Of a stretch of 64,000 bases of DNA, positions 31,404 to 38,677 are shown in pieces (position 1 is the stretch's first letter; the number at the start of each line of letters is the position of its first letter). The stretch covers positions 1-64,000 of the forward strand of contig NZ_BMYK01000016.1 of NCBI RefSeq assembly GCF_014652235.1, read 5' to 3'. The translations under genes and the position numbers were made by a program. The notes under the pieces are model-generated. The model had not been told where the DNA came from. It saw nothing but the letters and a program-made list of their open reading frames with translations, and ran no database searches. This DNA comes from Pseudorhodoferax aquiterrae. Its GTDB lineage: Bacteria > Pseudomonadota > Gammaproteobacteria > Burkholderiales > Burkholderiaceae_C.

Positions 31404-31558
31404 GCCGGTATCCCCTCGACGAGGCACCATCGCTGTGGCGCGCAGGCTCTGAGGACGTTGACGTTCGAGCGGATGTTCTGTTGCATGCCTACCCTCTGAC
31501 CGGTTGCGGGCAGCGACATGGTACTCAGCAGCAAGCGGCCCCTTCGGACGTGCGGTGG
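31404..31558. other. Intergenic gap
   Basis: Between the broken nuclease gene and the metallo-beta-lactamase-fold gene. I see no gene, repeat or clear terminator. Confidence 0.4.
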
Positions 31559-32665
31559 TTACCGCAACCCCTCCCACCACAGCCGGTTCTGCCGTGGCAC
31601 TCCCACCGTCAGCACCTCGCCGATCTCCGGCGTGGCCAGGTCGATGCCCGCGGCCTGGGCCAGCGCCGCCAGCTCGGCCAGCGGCGCCTGCCAGCGGTGG
31701 AAGGCCAGGTCGAAGGTGCTGTTGTGCACGCTGTAGAGCGTCTTGCCGCGCAGGTCGCCGAAGGCGCGCACGGTCTCGGCGGGCGTCATGTGCACCGAGG
31801 GCCACCAGGCGTCGTACGCGCCGTTCTCCATGAGCGCGATGTCGAAGCCGCCAAAGCGCGCGCCGATCTGCGCGAAGCCGCCGAAGTAGCCCGAGTCGCC
31901 GCTGTAGAAGATGCGCTGGCCGCCGACCTGGAGCACCCAGGACGACCACAGCGTGCTGTCGCGGTCCCACAGGCCGCGGCCCGAGAAGTGCTGCGAGGGC
32001 GTGGCCGTGAGCTGCACGCCGGCGTGCGTGGCCGCCTGCCACCAGTCGAATTCGCTGATGCGCTCGGGCGCCACGCCCATCTCCACCAGCCGGCGGCCCA
32101 CGCCCAGCGGCACGAAGTAGCGCTGCACGCGGTCTTTCAGGTACGCGATGGTCGGCACGTCCAGGTGGTCGTAGTGGTCGTGCGAGAGGATCAGGCCCTC
32201 GATGGGCGGCAGCTCCGTCAGCGCCAACGGCGGCGCATGGAAGCGCTTGGGGCCCATGAAGCTGAAGGGCGAGACGCGCTCGCCGAACACCGGGTCGATC
32301 AGCCAGTAGCGCCCCTGCAGCTTGAGCAGGTGCGAGGAATGGCCCAGGCGCACGATGTGGTTGGCGTCCGCCGGCAGTGCGGCGAGCTGGGCCTGCGTGA
32401 GCGGGCGCACGGGGATGGCGTCCACCGGCACCGTGCCCTCCTTCTTGCCGAAGAAGAAGCGGCTCCAGATGCGCCAGCCCTCCTGCGAGGGTTTGGCCTC
32501 GGGATTGACCGCATTGCGGAAGCGGCAGCCCTCGGTTTCGTACTGGGGCGAGGCCGACAGGCCGGCCTCGCAGGCGCGGGTGCTGGCGCAGCCGCCCAGC
32601 AGCAGCACGACGACCAGACCGATGGCGCGGGCCAGAAGACGCCCGTGGAAAGCAGATGCAGGCAT
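31559..32665 (-). CDS. Metallo-beta-lactamase-fold lipoprotein (UlaG/NAPE-PLD-like)
   Basis: 368 residues. A lipoprotein signal peptide ends in LLLGGC (lipidated Cys26). The metal motif HDHYDHLD lies at 162-169 (HxHxDH). Further ligands are expected at PSQHFSGRG, SGDSGYF and the C-terminal VHNST region. Resemblance is to the UlaG/NAPE-phospholipase D branch, which hydrolyses phosphodiesters or lactones. It is probably anchored in the outer membrane facing the periplasm. Divergent from the mechanosensitive channel gene. The true substrate is unknown. The ATG at 32665 begins the signal peptide; the open frame much further upstream is not coding. Confidence 0.91.
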   Translation of the reverse strand: MPASAFHGRLLARAIGLVVVLLLGGCASTRACEAGLSASPQYETEGCRFRNAVNPEAKPSQEGWRIWSRFFFGKKEGTVPVDAIPVRPLTQAQLAALPADANHIVRLGHSSHLLKLQGRYWLIDPVFGERVSPFSFMGPKRFHAPPLALTELPPIEGLILSHDHYDHLDVPTIAYLKDRVQRYFVPLGVGRRLVEMGVAPERISEFDWWQAATHAGVQLTATPSQHFSGRGLWDRDSTLWSSWVLQVGGQRIFYSGDSGYFGGFAQIGARFGGFDIALMENGAYDAWWPSVHMTPAETVRAFGDLRGKTLYSVHNSTFDLAFHRWQAPLAELAALAQAAGIDLATPEIGEVLTVGVPRQNRLWWEGLR

Positions 32666-32722
32666 GGGAAACGAACGGTGCAGCGCGAAAAGGCGCGGCG
32701 CGAGCTTACCTATGATCCGCGC

Positions 32723-35134
32723 ATGATCCGGATCCGCCTGGCCGCCCTGGCCGCTGTCTTCTCGCTGTTGCTGGCGCTGCAGGCGCAGCCCGTGCAGGCC
32801 CAGACCCCGGCGCAGCCGGCCTTGCCGGCCTCCGCGACGCCCGCCCCGGCCGAATCCCTGCCCGACGTGGCCACGCTGCGCAGCGACTTCGAGAAACTGC
32901 CCGAGACCGCCGTCGGCGCCGATGCCGTGCGCGCGCTGCAGGGCCGCTACGGCGCGCTGATCGCCAGCGCCAACAAGGTCATCGCGGCGCGCACCGGCCA
33001 GCTCAACGACCTCAACGCGCGCCTGGGCGAACTGGGCCCGGCGCCGGCGGCCGGCGCCAGCGAAGACCCCGACATCACGCGCCAGCGCCAGAGCCTCACG
33101 CGCGAGCGCAACGGCGTGGACGCCGACATCCGGCTGGCGCGCCTGGTGATCGTCGACGCCCAGCAGCGCAGCGACGACCTGCGCAACCGCCAGCGCGACC
33201 TGTTCGAGGCCCAGCTCACGGGCCGCGCGCCCTCGCCGCTGGGCAGCGTGTTCTGGCAGCAGCTGGCCGACGCCTGGCCGGAAGACCAGGCGCGCCTGGC
33301 CCCGCTGCTCGACGAACTGCAGGCCGCCGTGCGGCGCATGGGACAACCGGAGCACATCGGCCCCGTGCTGCTGGCGCTGGCGCTCGCGGTGCTGGCCATC
33401 ACGGTGGGCGACCTGCTGGCCGAGCACGGCCTGGCCCGGCTGGCACAGCGCCTGCTGCCCGGCGGGCGGCTGCGCCGCTCGCTGCTGGTGATCGCCATCG
33501 TGACCGTGAACCTGCTGGTCGTGGCCGTGGCCATGCGCGGCCTGCTGTCGCAGCTGCGCGCGCACGCCGCCTTCGGGCCGCTCAGCAGCAAGCTGGTGGC
33601 GCTGGCCGACGACTCGATGCTCTTCATCGCCTTCGTCACCGGCCTGGGCCGCGCGCTGCTGGCCAACCGGCGGCCGTCCTGGCGGCTGCCGCGCATCCCG
33701 GACGCGCTGGCGCTGCGGCTCAACCCCTATCCTTGGCTGTTCGCGCTGGTCGGTGTGCTGGTCTGGATTCCGACGCAGATCGTCGAGATCGTCGGCGCGA
33801 GCCTGGCCGCCGTGCACCTGGTGCAGATCGTGACGGCGCTGGCGCTGGCGCTGCTGATCCTGGGCGCGCTGCGGCGCCTGCACGGGCCGCAGGCGGCCAC
33901 GCCCGCGGCCGAGGGCGAGGCGGCGCCGCCCGAGGCCGGCCGCCCCCTGTGGGTGGGCCTGGCGATGGGCGCGGTGGCGCTGGCCCTGGTCGGCGTGATC
34001 GTGCTCACCGCCGCCGGCTACATGACCATCGGCAGCCTGCTGGCCTCCCAACTGGCCTGGACGGGCCTGGTGGGCGTGACCTTCTACGTGCTGTTCAAGT
34101 TCGCCGACGACCTGTGCATGGCCGTGGTGGCCTCCAAAAGCGACTTCGGCCAGCGGCTGCAGCGCGGTTTCGGCTTCGCGCCGGCCACGCTGGACCAGGC
34201 CGCCGTGGTGCTGTCGGCGCTGGCGCGGCTGGTGCTGTTCTTCTACATGGTCATCGCGCTGCTGGCGCCGCTGGGCACGCGGCCCGACGAGGTGCTGGAG
34301 CAGACCGGCCGCATCGGCAGCGGGCTCAAGATCGGCGAGTTCCAGCTGGTGCCGGCCGCGCTGTTCAGCGCCATCGCCGTGCTGGTGGGCGGCTTCGTTG
34401 CGCTGCGCGTGTTCCAGCGATGGCTGCGCGAGCGCTACCTGCCCACCACGACGATGGAGCCGGGCATGCAGAGCTCGCTGGCCACGCTGCTCAACTACGT
34501 GGGCATGGTGCTGGTGGTGGCGGCCGGCATGTCGGCGCTGGGCATCGGCGTGAACCGCATCGCCTGGATCGCCAGCGCCCTGTCGGTGGGCATCGGCTTC
34601 GGCCTGCAGGCCATCGTGCAGAACTTCATCTCGGGCCTGATCCTCTTGGCCGAGCGGCCCGTGAAGGTCGGCGACTGGGTCGTGCTGGGCACCACCGAGG
34701 GCGACATCAAGCGCATCAACGTGCGCGCCACCGAGATCCAGCTCGGCGACCGCTCCACCGTGATCGTGCCCAACTCCGAGTTCATCACCAAGACCGTGCG
34801 CAACATGACGCTCAGCAACGCCGAGGGCCGCGTGCTGATCCGCCTGCCCATGCCGCTGGCGACCGACGCGCCCAAGGTGCGCGAACTCATGCTGGCGGCC
34901 TGCGCCGCCCACCCCAAGGTGCTGCCCACGCCCGCGCCCTCGCTGTCGCTGGAGGGCGTGGAGAACGGCATGCTGGTGTTCCAGGCCATCTGCTACGTGG
35001 ACGGGCCGCGCACCGCCGGTGGCGTGCGCAGCGACCTGCTGTTCGCGATGCTGGAATCCTTCCGCGATGCCGGCCTGGCGATGGCCGCGCCGCCCACCGT
35101 GGTGGTGGCGCCGCCGCCTGCCGCGCCGGCCTGA
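32723..35134 (+). CDS. MscS-family mechanosensitive channel with DUF3772 N-terminus
   Basis: 803 residues, of the large MscK/MscM-like type. Signal peptide, then a periplasmic DUF3772 domain with coiled-coil character (about residues 50-210), about ten membrane spans (220-580), and the MscS core. The pore helix region is WIASALSVGIGFGLQAIVQNFISGL (written here in part only as GIGFGLQAIVQNF), followed by the beta domain ERPVKVGDWVVLG and a cytoplasmic alpha/beta end with a Pro/Ala-rich tail. It should release solutes on hypo-osmotic shock. The start ATG at 32723 fits the signal peptide. Divergent from the lipoprotein gene. Confidence 0.94.
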   Translation: MIRIRLAALAAVFSLLLALQAQPVQAQTPAQPALPASATPAPAESLPDVATLRSDFEKLPETAVGADAVRALQGRYGALIASANKVIAARTGQLNDLNARLGELGPAPAAGASEDPDITRQRQSLTRERNGVDADIRLARLVIVDAQQRSDDLRNRQRDLFEAQLTGRAPSPLGSVFWQQLADAWPEDQARLAPLLDELQAAVRRMGQPEHIGPVLLALALAVLAITVGDLLAEHGLARLAQRLLPGGRLRRSLLVIAIVTVNLLVVAVAMRGLLSQLRAHAAFGPLSSKLVALADDSMLFIAFVTGLGRALLANRRPSWRLPRIPDALALRLNPYPWLFALVGVLVWIPTQIVEIVGASLAAVHLVQIVTALALALLILGALRRLHGPQAATPAAEGEAAPPEAGRPLWVGLAMGAVALALVGVIVLTAAGYMTIGSLLASQLAWTGLVGVTFYVLFKFADDLCMAVVASKSDFGQRLQRGFGFAPATLDQAAVVLSALARLVLFFYMVIALLAPLGTRPDEVLEQTGRIGSGLKIGEFQLVPAALFSAIAVLVGGFVALRVFQRWLRERYLPTTTMEPGMQSSLATLLNYVGMVLVVAAGMSALGIGVNRIAWIASALSVGIGFGLQAIVQNFISGLILLAERPVKVGDWVVLGTTEGDIKRINVRATEIQLGDRSTVIVPNSEFITKTVRNMTLSNAEGRVLIRLPMPLATDAPKVRELMLAACAAHPKVLPTPAPSLSLEGVENGMLVFQAICYVDGPRTAGGVRSDLLFAMLESFRDAGLAMAAPPTVVVAPPPAAPA

Positions 35135-35252
35135 AGTCCGCAGAAACCCTGGGGGCGTCGCGCGTGCGGCGCGGTCGTCCCCCCACAATGCGCCGGCCCA
35201 GCCGCGCTGCACGGGGCACCGCGGACTGTTTCCCCAGAAGCAAGGACCTCCA

Positions 35253-36179
35253 GTGACCTTCACCGCCCAGGCTTCCCTGTCCCGCCGGCTCGCCGTGCTC
35301 TCGCTGGCCGGCCTCGCCGCCTCTGCCACTCTGGCCCAGAACAGCGGCTACGAGCCGCAGCGCGGGCAGGCCGGCAAGGACGTGATCTGGATCCCCACGC
35401 CGGACGAGACCGTCACGCGCATGCTGCAGATGGCGGAGGTCCAGCCCACGGACCGCGTGTTCGACCTCGGTTCGGGCGACGGCAAGATCGCGATTGCCGC
35501 GGCACGCGAGTTCGGCGCGCGCGCCACCGGCCTCGAATACAACCCGGACATGGTGGGCTTGTCGAACCGGCGTGCCCAGGAGGCCGGCGTGGCGGACAAG
35601 GTGCAGTTCCGCCAGGCCGACATCTTCCAGGCCGACTTCTCCAGCGCCACCGTGGTCACCATGTACCTGCTGCCCGCGCTCAACCTGCGGCTGCGCCCGC
35701 TGCTGTTCAAGATGGCGCCGGGCACGCGCGTGGTCTCGCACTCGTTCACGATGGGCGACTGGACGCCCGACGAGACCGCCCGCGCCGGCTACGGCGACGT
35801 CTATCTGTGGCACGTGCCGGCCAACGCCTCGGGCAACTGGAAGCTCACCGGCGCCGGCCTGCCCGAGGCCGCGCTGTCGATCGCACAGCGCTACCAGGTG
35901 CTCAGCGGCGACGCGGTGTTCGGCGAGCTGCGCGCCAGCCTGGTGCGCCCGCGCATCACGGGCGCGCAGATCGGCTTCGGCCTGCGCGATCCCAAGGGCC
36001 AGCTCTGGCAGTTCGAGGGCAAGGTGGATGGCGCCCGCATCACGGGCACGGCCACGCGGCCCGGCCAGGCCGGCGTGCCCTTTGAAGCGCGCCGCACCGG
36101 CGAAGCCGCGCCGATCGCGCCCACCACGGCCGCGGCGGAACAGGAAGCCAGCGCGTTCGCCGCGAGCACCGCCCGATGA
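35253..36179 (+). CDS. SAM-dependent methyltransferase with a Sec signal peptide
   Basis: 308 residues. Class I methyltransferase: motif I DLGSGDG (71-77), acidic GLEYNPDMV, then FRQADIFQADFSSATVVTMYLLP, the pattern of DOT1-like bacterial methyltransferases. Unexpectedly, residues 1-28 look like a classical signal peptide (RRLAVLSLAGLAASATLAQ), and the C-terminal 90 residues are beta-rich and typical of secreted proteins. The start is GTG at 35253 with AAGGA upstream; there is no good alternative that removes the signal. Its stop overlaps the permease ATG (ATGA). The methyl acceptor and the source of SAM outside the cytoplasm are unknown. Confidence 0.86.
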   Translation: MTFTAQASLSRRLAVLSLAGLAASATLAQNSGYEPQRGQAGKDVIWIPTPDETVTRMLQMAEVQPTDRVFDLGSGDGKIAIAAAREFGARATGLEYNPDMVGLSNRRAQEAGVADKVQFRQADIFQADFSSATVVTMYLLPALNLRLRPLLFKMAPGTRVVSHSFTMGDWTPDETARAGYGDVYLWHVPANASGNWKLTGAGLPEAALSIAQRYQVLSGDAVFGELRASLVRPRITGAQIGFGLRDPKGQLWQFEGKVDGARITGTATRPGQAGVPFEARRTGEAAPIAPTTAAAEQEASAFAASTAR

Positions 36180-37519
36180 CATCGCCGGCGGCCGCCGCGC
36201 CGCTGACCATGCGCCACGCCATCGCCATCACGGTGGGCGTGGTCATCGGAGCCGGCATCTTCAAGGCGCCGTCGCTGGTCGCCGGCAGCGTGCCCAGCGC
36301 GGGTTGGATGTTCGCGCTGTGGGTGGCGGGCGGGTTCATCGCGCTGGTCGGCGCGCTCTGCTATGCCGAGCTGGCCAGCACCTACCCGAGCGCGGGCGGC
36401 GAATACCACTTCCTCTCGCGCGCCTTCGGCCGCGGCACGGCGCTGCTGTACGCCTGGGCACGCTTCGCGGTCATCACCACGGGCTCGATCGCGCTTCTGG
36501 GCTTCGTGTTCGGCGACTACATGACGCAGCTGCTGCCGCTCGGGCCCTACAGCAGCGCGCTGTGGGCGGCCATTGCCACCGTGGTGCTCACGCTGATCAA
36601 CCTGCGCGGCATCCGCAGCGGTGCCGAGACGCAGTCCTGGCTCACGGCCGTGGAGGTCGGCGGGCTGGTGCTGATCGTCGGGGCGGCGCTGTGGTTCGCC
36701 GTGGGCGGCGGCAGCGCACCGCCGCCGGCTGCCGCGCCCGGCCCGGTTTCGCTGGCCGGTGTGGGCTTCGGCATGGTCTTCGTGCTGCTGACCTTCGGCG
36801 GCTGGAACGATGCGGCGTACATCAGCGCCGACCTCAAGGACCGGCGCGCCATCGCACGCGCGCTGCTCATCTCGGTGCTGTTCCTGACCGCGCTGTACCT
36901 GCTCGTGAACTGGGCCTACTGGTCGGTGCTGGGCCTGGCCGGCATGGCCAAGTCGCAGGCCGTGGCCACCGACGTGCTGGCGGCCGCCTTCGGCCCCGGC
37001 GCCGGCCAGCTCATCGCGGCCATGGTCGCGGCGGCCGCGCTGACCTCCATCAACGCCACCATGATCGTGGGCGCGCGCACCGCCAGCGCGCTGGGCCAGG
37101 ACTGGCCCGCGCTCCAGCTGCTGGCCGCCTGGGACGAAGAGCGCCGCGTGCCGCGCAACGCCTTGCCGATCCAGTGCGCGCTGGCGCTGGTGCTGATCGT
37201 GCTGGGCGTGGCCTTCAAGGGCGGCTTCCAGGCCATGGTGGAGTACACGGCGCCGGTGTTCTGGCTGTTCTTCCTGCTGGTGGGCATCGCGCTGTTCCGG
37301 CTGCGCGCCATCGACGGTGCGCGCGAGCGGCCCTTCCGCGTGCCGCTGTACCCGGTGCTGCCCGCGCTGTTCTGCGCCAGCAGTGCCTACATGCTGTGGT
37401 CCAGCCTGGGCTACGTGTACTCGCAGCAGCTGGGCGGCTTCAACGCGGCCTGGGTCGGCGTGGGCGTGCTGGCCAGCGGGCTGGTGGTGCTGGGGCTGAT
37501 GCGTGCATCCAGGCGCTGA
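36176..37519 (+). CDS. APC-superfamily amino acid permease
   Basis: 447 residues with about twelve membrane spans. The first span carries the family motif GVVIGAGIFKAPS; ELASTYPSAGGEYHFLSRAFG follows in TM3, the conserved E-x-YP-x2-GG pattern of APC transporters. Likely an importer or exchanger of amino acids or amines at the inner membrane. It is translationally coupled to the methyltransferase gene (four-base overlap), a link that is not explained. Its stop abuts the stop of the convergent diguanylate cyclase gene, giving TGATCA with no spacer. Confidence 0.92.
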   Translation: MTSPAAAAPLTMRHAIAITVGVVIGAGIFKAPSLVAGSVPSAGWMFALWVAGGFIALVGALCYAELASTYPSAGGEYHFLSRAFGRGTALLYAWARFAVITTGSIALLGFVFGDYMTQLLPLGPYSSALWAAIATVVLTLINLRGIRSGAETQSWLTAVEVGGLVLIVGAALWFAVGGGSAPPPAAAPGPVSLAGVGFGMVFVLLTFGGWNDAAYISADLKDRRAIARALLISVLFLTALYLLVNWAYWSVLGLAGMAKSQAVATDVLAAAFGPGAGQLIAAMVAAAALTSINATMIVGARTASALGQDWPALQLLAAWDEERRVPRNALPIQCALALVLIVLGVAFKGGFQAMVEYTAPVFWLFFLLVGIALFRLRAIDGARERPFRVPLYPVLPALFCASSAYMLWSSLGYVYSQQLGGFNAAWVGVGVLASGLVVLGLMRASRR

Positions 37520-38677
37520 TCAGGCGTCCATGGCGACGGCCACCCGGTCACGCCCCAACCGCTTGGCCTCGTAGAGCGCGGCATCGGCGCGCGCCAGCAC
37601 GGCGGCCAGGCTGGCGTCGCCATGGCGCACGCAGGCCACGCCCACGCTGACCGTGCAGGCCGGCACCTTGGCGGTGGCCGGCAGGCGCGCCACGGCCTGG
37701 CGCATGCGCTCGGCCACCATGCGGGCCTCGCCGGCACCGGTCTCGGGCAGCAGCACCAGGAACTCCTCGCCGCCGTAGCGGCCGAGCCGGTCGACGTTGC
37801 GCAGCGCATGGCCCAGCGCGTCGACCACGCGCGAGAGCACGCGGTCGCCCACGGCATGGCCGTGGCCGTCGTTGATGGACTTGAAGTGGTCCACGTCCAC
37901 CATCAGCAGCGCGAAGCCATGGTCGAAGCGCTGCCAGCGGCCGAACTCGCGCGTGCAGTCCTCCAGCACCGCGCGCCGGGCCAGCGCACCGGTCAGGCTG
38001 TCGTGGTTGGCCAGATGCTCGAACTCCGAGCGCAGCCGCTCGCTGGCCATCAGCAGCACGCCCACGCTGACCAGCAGCACCGAGAAGCTGTAAGTGGCGA
38101 TGTAGACGGACTGCATGGGCGAGGGCGCGAAGCGGTGGCTGGTGGGCGTGTCCAGCCAGAAGGTGGAGACCGCGCGCGCCAGCAGCACCAGGGTCTGCAC
38201 CGCGAGCACGCCGGCCGTGAACCGCGCTGCGAAACCGGGCCCCGCGCGCTGCAGCAGCAGCCGGATGTGCAGCACCAGCACGACGGAGAGCGTGCTGGCG
38301 AACAGGGCCAGGCGCAGACGGTAGTCCGGGTAGCCGACGAGAAAGAACACCTGCCCCATGAGCAGCAGCATGCCGACCACCGCCCAGGGCCGCCAGCCGC
38401 TGCGCAGGCCGTAGAAGCGCCGCGTGCCGAAGTAGAACAGCGCGCAGCCGCTCATGAGCAGGCCGTTGCCGAAGACGACGGTCACGAGCGGCGTGAACAG
38501 CCTCTCCAGCCCGTAGAACACGGTCGAGGAGGCTGCCACCACGGGCGCCAGGCCCCACAGCCACATGCCGCGGATCGAGCCCGGGTAGTGCCGCCGGAGC
38601 ATGAGCAGCACGAAGCCCATGGCCGCGCTGGTCATGAACGCCATCAGGGTCAGGGAACGCAGATCCAGGGCGAACAT
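37520..38677 (-). CDS. Membrane diguanylate cyclase (GGDEF domain)
   Basis: 385 residues: about six membrane spans in residues 10-210, then a GGDEF domain. The active-site loop is GGEEF near residue 302. RNVD lies exactly five residues before it and is an intact I-site (RxxD) for product inhibition by c-di-GMP. The substrate region DVDHFKSINDGHGHAVGD is also complete. The enzyme should be active and self-limiting, making c-di-GMP in response to a membrane signal. No EAL domain is present. Convergent with the APC permease gene with zero spacing. Confidence 0.95.
   Translation of the reverse strand: MFALDLRSLTLMAFMTSAAMGFVLLMLRRHYPGSIRGMWLWGLAPVVAASSTVFYGLERLFTPLVTVVFGNGLLMSGCALFYFGTRRFYGLRSGWRPWAVVGMLLLMGQVFFLVGYPDYRLRLALFASTLSVVLVLHIRLLLQRAGPGFAARFTAGVLAVQTLVLLARAVSTFWLDTPTSHRFAPSPMQSVYIATYSFSVLLVSVGVLLMASERLRSEFEHLANHDSLTGALARRAVLEDCTREFGRWQRFDHGFALLMVDVDHFKSINDGHGHAVGDRVLSRVVDALGHALRNVDRLGRYGGEEFLVLLPETGAGEARMVAERMRQAVARLPATAKVPACTVSVGVACVRHGDASLAAVLARADAALYEAKRLGRDRVAVAMDA

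Follow-up and report, generated by a model that had tools for sequence, protein, structure and literature searches.

SAM is generally regarded as a cofactor of the cytosol. The solved domain closest to the methyltransferase described here, from Salinibacter ruber (5bxy; E value of 1e-49, 53% over 154 aligned residues), was crystallized as a one-domain chain of 158 residues and is titled 'RNA methyltransferase.' aKMT of Sulfolobus (5fa8, 5fad, and 5jwj; NF041081) is also alike in its methyltransferase domain (E value of 2e-29, 39–40% identity), and the two enzymes share a VPYVPTP-like start and a DLGxGDG motif. Unlike the protein in the window, aKMT chains are ~160 aa long and have neither a signal peptide nor a C-terminal beta domain. 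FAM173A (ANT-KMT) and FAM173B (ATPSc-KMT), human relatives of aKMT, target ANT and ATP synthase subunit c, respectively, according to two reports (PMC9006661, PMC5828452). Both are mitochondrial and membrane-anchored; they are likened to the enzyme here by description.

SLC25A26 is described as trading SAM against SAH at the mitochondrial membrane (PMC9239748). This is like the job that we propose for a permease encoded beside the methyltransferase, which would bring SAM in exchange for SAH into the methylating compartment. The carrier family of SLC25A26 is presumably unrelated to this permease. SAM importers of intracellular bacteria (Rickettsia and Chlamydia) move SAM across the inner membrane; we take them to belong to another transporter family than the permease, and the likeness is one of description only. 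In fold, the permease resembles the BasC/SLC7 LAT exchangers, BasC ranking first with a Z score of 47.4 and 26% identity. Among the matches listed in the freely licensed literature, we found no bacterial SAM methyltransferase of this type in the periplasm and no SAM exporter; of those matches, the nearest published case was the membrane enzyme PilD.

The window (the whole stretch of 64,000 nucleotides analyzed here) contains on its + strand a gene for a signal-bearing, aKMT-like class I SAM-dependent methyltransferase (35253..36179; 308 aa, GTG start, TGA stop), assigned from its open reading frame, family, and model. A gene for a LAT-fold, amino-acid-permease-like transporter (36176..37519, + strand; 447 aa), a candidate SAM/SAH carrier, adjoins it, and ATGA is read from the sequence at 36176..36179 (+ strand), where the permease start lies over the methyltransferase stop. 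The initial annotation, which concerned the methyltransferase, offered three readings of its signal-like N-terminus: SAM is used in the periplasm in some unknown way, the fold has been adapted to another ligand, or the hydrophobic segment is only an anchor. Our computations revealed export signals throughout the family, a strictly kept SAM site, and repeated linkage of the permease subfamily to signal-bearing SAM methyltransferases of several families.

The methyltransferase and its SAM site

The methyltransferase gene is preceded by AAGGA (35242..35246, + strand), a ribosome-binding-site-like sequence read directly 6 nt 5' of the GTG start. A promoter scan, which was uninformative, gave no sigma-70-like site in 35000-37800. 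The protein begins with MTFTAQASLSRRLAVLSLAGLAASATLAQ. Residues 1–28 (35253..35336, + strand) would form the signal peptide; cleavage between TLA and QN fits the family, and the best site of our scan lay between AASA and TLA. Compared with the Tat signal consensus, S/T-R-R-x-F-L-K, its SRRLAV stretch is only weakly Tat-like. Two more signal-bearing relatives (L002 and L003) are encoded elsewhere in the host genome, and the signal of the paralogue L002 contains a classical-looking RRSFLG. The host belongs to the Comamonadaceae, close to Pseudorhodoferax and Variovorax, with named relatives at 89–97%.

Alignment with relatives defined a conserved mature N-terminal segment, EPQRGQAGKD (residues 34–43; 35352..35381, + strand), in which P35, Q39, G41, K42, and D43 were invariant across 45 aligned relatives. 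The seven-beta-strand methyltransferase domain follows at residues 44–190 (35382..35822, + strand), as judged from alignment, model, and structure match. In Pfam, the protein matched Methyltransf_25, Methyltransf_31, and, weakly, DOT1. The top curated model was that of the archaeal protein-lysine methyltransferase (NF041081); since the score of 104 bits is below the cut-off of 200, the enzyme stands outside the curated aKMT equivalog, and the cut-off was passed by none of the three family members of the host genome. The AlphaFold model had a mean pLDDT of 89.6; L047 was omitted from its alignment because it contains a stop. The solved domains nearest to the modeled domain were SAM/SAH complexes, 5bxy with SAH (Z score of 26.2, rmsd of 1.3 over 154 residues) and then aKMT (5fad, Z score of 25.3). 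By fold, motif, and nearest similarity, the enzyme is probably an aKMT/FAM173-like seven-beta-strand methyltransferase and may methylate lysine in proteins.

The SAM site was compared in an alignment of 139 rows, consisting of 137 members and the fragments of 5bxy and aKMT. In motif I, D71-L-G-S-G-D-G77 (VFDLGSGDG; 35463..35483, + strand), D71, L72, G73, G75, and D76 were identical in all 139 rows and G77 in 138. The end of strand 2 carries the acidic E95 (35535..35537, + strand; E in 120 rows and D in 19), which we take to be the ribose-binding position of class I methyltransferases. D123 was replaced by N in four rows, and positions 134–139 (VVTMYL) and 162–167 closely match aKMT and 5bxy. 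The class I motifs are thus as intact as the initial annotation had stated, with D-L-G-x-G-D the same in every row, and for this reason a repurposed fold is unlikely. Its suggestion of another ligand is further disfavored by the acidic residue at 95 and by the SAM/SAH complexes among the nearest structures. SAM-site conservation and superposition of the model both point to a functional SAM enzyme rather than to one that binds a new ligand.

Residues 194–282 (35832..36098, + strand) form a further domain of nine predicted strands. In the model it is beta-rich and separate, with pLDDT mostly >95; its columns were filled in ~85% of the aligned rows, and it is absent from short members such as L026. 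Pfam gave no match over these residues. Structure searches with the whole model gave no solved fold for this domain, the matches listed being to the methyltransferase domain, and the beta domain may yet have a known fold. The annotation had called the C-terminal domain 'secreted-type.' A separate beta-rich domain was borne out, and because Pfam has no match over it, the term describes the domain and does not name a family.

Export signals in the methyltransferase family

Relatives were collected from 150 genomes of the family (25, including the host genome, matched at an E value of 1e-30 or better), named genome contigs (best 80 of 214), 398 genomes of the phylum (9 at 1e-20, host included), 274 genomes of the class (6 at 1e-15, host included), 148 genomes of another phylum (7 at 1e-15, centre genome included), and 72,556 plasmid records (methyltransferase in 5). 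The 151 matches of the loci script were reduced to 139 distinct ones by merging those with identical first 120 residues. N-termini were examined with a home-made scan that accepted every in-frame start and sought either n-, h-, and c-regions or a lipobox.

A Sec, Tat-like, or lipoprotein signal was found in 130 of the 139 distinct matches: 96 plain, 29 of RR type by a loose rule, and 5 lipoprotein-like. A stricter RR rule retained 16 of the 130 signal-bearing members. Among control genes from eight neighboring gene groups, seven of which we take to be usually cytosolic families (the eighth is unnamed), 1 of 78 was positive. TctC-type periplasmic proteins, used as a positive control, scored in 17 of 24 cases, and shuffled N-termini in 308 of 2740 (11%). 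Nine rows were scan-negative. L030 lies outside the family, L029 is a fusion-like open reading frame that has no usable start, and L096_1 has its 5' end cut off. By eye, L025, L048, and L049_0 seem to carry signals that the scan overlooked, whereas L121, L122, and L146 are members apparently without a signal.

In the family, an A-x-A-type site usually follows the hydrophobic stretch just before the conserved mature N-terminus, which in the main clade reads E-P-x-x-G-Q-x-G-K-D; a lipobox-like or RR-type signal replaces the plain one in some members. Signal kinds were intermingled on the tree of the methyltransferase domain, as expected if export is conserved and not one route. Cys is absent from 109 of the 130 exported cores, which speaks weakly for export; the cytosolic controls DnaB and PhoH are likewise Cys-poor there. 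Export thus appears close to a family rule. These results agree with the signal peptide that the initial annotation placed on the methyltransferase: the reading frame is exact, and the signal stands well above the controls (130/139 versus 1/78). The annotation had asked whether such signals are conserved in the family, which for the same 130 matches they are, and these matches do not start after the hydrophobic segment, a start that the annotation had named as grounds for refutation. A mere anchor is disfavored for the family because of the A-x-A-type site before the conserved mature N-terminus and the lipobox-like and RR-type versions.

Linkage of the methyltransferase to a permease

Linkage was counted for 137 members in 130 loci, L029 and L030 having been dropped. 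A LAT-fold permease was present at the locus of 65 members (61 loci), always on the strand of the enzyme (65/65), and lay downstream in 54 cases and upstream in 11. Estimated gaps fell within -19 to 220 bases for 58 of the 65; three estimates are clearly wrong (-1353, -914, and -843), and in four linked rows another methyltransferase copy stands between enzyme and permease. The match in L133 is weak (36%) and forms a long branch in the permease tree. For 60 members, no permease was found although the flank reached 1.2 kb or more on each side, and in 12 the flank was too short to judge. Among the 72,556 plasmid records, four of the five with the methyltransferase also held a close permease, and these were the only four with one: Chelatococcus, with the permease downstream, and Agrobacterium and two near-identical plasmids of the cyanobacterium Leptolyngbya (one judged by coordinates only), with the permease upstream. 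A Gloeothece plasmid carried the enzyme alone. Clustering of neighbor genes gave no third conserved neighbor that accompanies the pair throughout. In another clade, the enzyme gene lies between phoH-like and dnaB-like genes, without a permease.

The host genome has one such permease at an E value of 0.001 versus three enzymes. Of 24 genomes with an enzyme copy without an adjacent permease (G096, with L029, left out; named-contig loci represented only by L073, L096, L098, and L105), 22 had no close permease at an E value of 1e-60. The other two had one beside another enzyme copy (G543) and beside an O-methyltransferase (G576); G600 gave a weak match of 36%. Thirty family genomes picked for lacking the enzyme included three with the permease. 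Thus, the permease as an obligatory partner was rejected, and the enzyme can manage without it, since 22 of the 24 genomes have no close permease.

Next, linkage was counted from the permease, a search that avoids choosing loci by the enzyme. Samples of 299, 297, and 357 genomes were used, with the subfamily defined by at least 38% identity and our own window excluded; the groups for the samples of 297 and 357 genomes were chosen via genomes known to hold the enzyme or the pair. Neighbors were judged by tblastn, motif pattern, and eye, with Pfam for likely methyltransferases only. Fifteen of 23 distinct subfamily loci (3/9, 8/10, and 4/4 new by sample) adjoined a SAM methyltransferase that bears a signal and shares the strand of the permease, and eight had no recognized methyltransferase neighbor. 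The count is 14 of 22 when the genome of L175 (G576) is left out, this genome being the centre of the second sample and picked earlier for its enzyme. Permeases L172–L174, from genomes lacking the enzyme, and L171, from one holding it, are not among the 23. Remoter permeases (≤37%) adjoined such a methyltransferase in 0 of 11 cases (Fisher P = 0.0005 with or without G576, a guide only because the rows are related by descent and not independent).

The 15 linked neighbors belong to four families. Eleven are aKMT-like, two are PIMT (L181 and L182; TIGR00080 above its cut-off), one is TIGR00027/LCM (L183, also above the cut-off; its signal, SRRDFL, is Tat-like), and one is an O-methyltransferase of PF01596 (L175). 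The N-termini of all four non-aKMT partners were signal-like in the scan; the LCM reading frame lacks any ATG, GTG, or TTG upstream of the Tat motif and was scanned with M added. Three of the non-aKMT rows, the two PIMT and the LCM, cluster in the permease tree with four aKMT-linked rows in a supported clade of seven. Another clade consists of nine unlinked permeases; two others, L180 and L184, lie elsewhere, L184 beside L175.

Residues of the permease

The permease belongs to AA_permease_2, and both sequence and fold place it nearest to the LAT-type exchangers; it scored 164 bits against the LAT model TIGR00911, below the cut-off of 702. LATs are described as exchangers in the BasC paper (PMC6472337). 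Overall, the TM1 and TM6 substrate segments and BasC Tyr236 are largely kept. G25-A26-G27 (36248..36256, + strand) aligns with the unwound TM1 segment, which in BasC holds the substrate carboxylate, and in the 61 linked permeases G25 was found in 61, A26 in 54, and G27 in 60. Y241 (36896..36898, + strand), aligned with the carboxylate contact Tyr236 of BasC, was kept in 59 of 61. T206 (36791..36793, + strand) aligns with BasC Ala200, part of the substrate-contacting TM6 backbone, and is A in 6/6 unlinked sister permeases. Comparison of linked permeases with six of the nine unlinked ones revealed differences in TM1/TM6 residues at 32, 206, 211, and 215.

By contrast with the LATs, the site of their diagnostic TM5 lysine (BasC Lys154) aligns with E160 in the window permease (36653..36655, + strand). 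Among the 61 linked permeases, this site is E in 53, T in 4, and D, V, and Q in one each, with one gap and no K, whereas the remoter permeases have K in 10 of 10. As a cationic amino acid, SAM might be a cargo to which glutamate in place of lysine is suited. The arginine/agmatine exchanger AdiC likewise has no positive residue at the site of the LAT lysine, as stated in the BasC paper (PMC6472337). The permease also has positive charges at K30 (TM1b) and R96 (TM3), which do not favor a cationic cargo. K30 is the only column in which lysine exceeds 60% (K in 50 and R in 9 of the 61 linked permeases), and it is also present in four of six unlinked sisters.

A possible supply of SAM outside the cytoplasm

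As the best explanation, with a probability a little below even, we propose that the exported methyltransferase acts in the periplasm and that the overlapping permease serves it as an exchanger, with SAM going out and SAH coming back. An aKMT-like seven-beta-strand SAM methyltransferase would be exported through the inner membrane, its signal peptide would be removed, and its substrate in the periplasm would probably be a protein. The adjoining permease would, most likely, exchange SAM moving out for the product SAH moving back. Because the four enzyme families share SAM and SAH and are expected to differ in their acceptors, these two compounds would be the most economical cargo. We infer the cleavage, location, catalytic activity, and acceptor of the enzyme and, most of all, what the permease carries and in which direction, the cargo from gene linkage and the kept BasC contacts for the alpha-amino acid. 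On a wider scale, a dedicated extracytoplasmic methylation system, in which a subfamily of LAT-fold SAM/SAH exchangers would work with exported methyltransferases of at least four families, is possible at somewhat less than an even chance. Against supply by the permease stand the 22 of 24 genomes that have the enzyme without a close permease, where the route of SAM is unexplained, the 60 members with ample flank and no permease, the three genomes with the permease but not the enzyme, the eight subfamily loci with no recognized methyltransferase neighbor, and the charges of K30 and R96. Among the readings of the initial annotation, the use of SAM in the periplasm is now the best supported, with the adjoining permease as a candidate supply route and with enzyme activity and transport as its predicted parts.

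An exported, active enzyme is also compatible with a permease whose cargo is not SAM but the methyl acceptor or the product of methylation, in either case an amino acid or a small molecule. Most of the amino-acid-binding contacts of BasC are kept, as this would require, but the same permease subfamily lies beside methyltransferases known to act on different acceptors (PIMT on isoaspartyl residues and aKMT on lysine), and we consider such a cargo rather unlikely. That an exported, active enzyme methylates the permease itself, in the way that FAM173A methylates ANT, seems quite unlikely. Inner-membrane proteins, including one exchanger, are indeed methylated by FAM173A and FAM173B (PMC9006661). 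However, the search for conserved lysines gave only K30, the sole widely conserved one and common to unlinked sisters, and the place of the partner is taken by other methyltransferase families; these partner swaps and the want of a specific conserved lysine weaken the idea, and the permease as a lysine target was not favored.

Export of the folded enzyme by Tat with its own bound SAM, the permease having another role, would explain RR-type signals (29/139 by the loose rule and 16/130 by the stricter one). Most members have signals without RR, though, strict RR is not commoner without the permease (5/66) than with it (11/64), and a single bound SAM would mean a single turnover; we rejected this as a general answer and regard it as very improbable. 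The fold may alternatively have lost catalysis and serve, outside the cytoplasm, to bind SAM, SAH, or a look-alike. No activity report for an exported member was found among the matches listed in the freely licensed literature, which would fit a binder, but motif I, the acidic residue after strand 2, and the segments at 134–139 and 162–167 are those of aKMT and 5bxy, and a binder is clearly improbable. Extremely improbable is a protein that is not exported, its hydrophobic stretch being a wrong start or an anchor facing the cytoplasm. The GTG start, the one in-frame GTG at residue 44, and the signal codons of three near relatives, in which changes of meaning equal or outnumber silent ones (silent/changed 2/2, 7/7, and 3/7), could point that way; against it, the conserved residues 34–43 lie upstream of the GTG at residue 44, and the signal is family-wide and includes lipoprotein-like and RR versions.

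Since export is near the family rule and a permease is often linked, the methyltransferase is more notable than the initial annotation said. Should SAM and SAH prove to be its cargo, the permease would play in bacteria the part that the SAM carrier plays in mitochondria, and a class of modifications of envelope proteins could be tested directly. Even with another cargo, a widespread family of signal-bearing methyltransferases with an intact SAM site needs explaining, and the permease gives a handle toward this.

Neighboring genes and related loci

Upstream of the methyltransferase gene, 31481-35134 (+ strand) encodes a large MscS-type channel that matches the MscK/MscM models. Its listed TTG start seems too early; by eye, a start at MIRIRLAALAAVFSLLLALQAQPVQAQ, which is also signal-like, is likelier. 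The convergent gene at 37520-38677 (- strand) looks by eye like one for a membrane-bound GGDEF protein (RYGGEEFLVLLPE).

Tandem methyltransferase pairs were observed in L042, L049, L056, L062, and L069; a permease follows the pair in L042, L056, L062, and L069, and none was found in L049. One genome bin (G543, locus L096) contained 11 family matches at an E value of 1e-15. The bins of L072, L096, and L109 are labeled Akkermansia, Klebsiella, and Bordetella, respectively; their enzymes group with Burkholderiales-type loci, and the titles are probably wrong.

The PIMT genes beside the permease, at L181:2844-3629 and L182:2878-3627, have N-terminal signal-like segments, and exported PIMT, if true, would mean protein repair in the envelope. 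Spermidine synthase uses decarboxylated SAM, and in L158, L159, and L160 unlinked subfamily permeases are convergent to an apparent gene for this enzyme ~0.5 kb away, as judged by eye.
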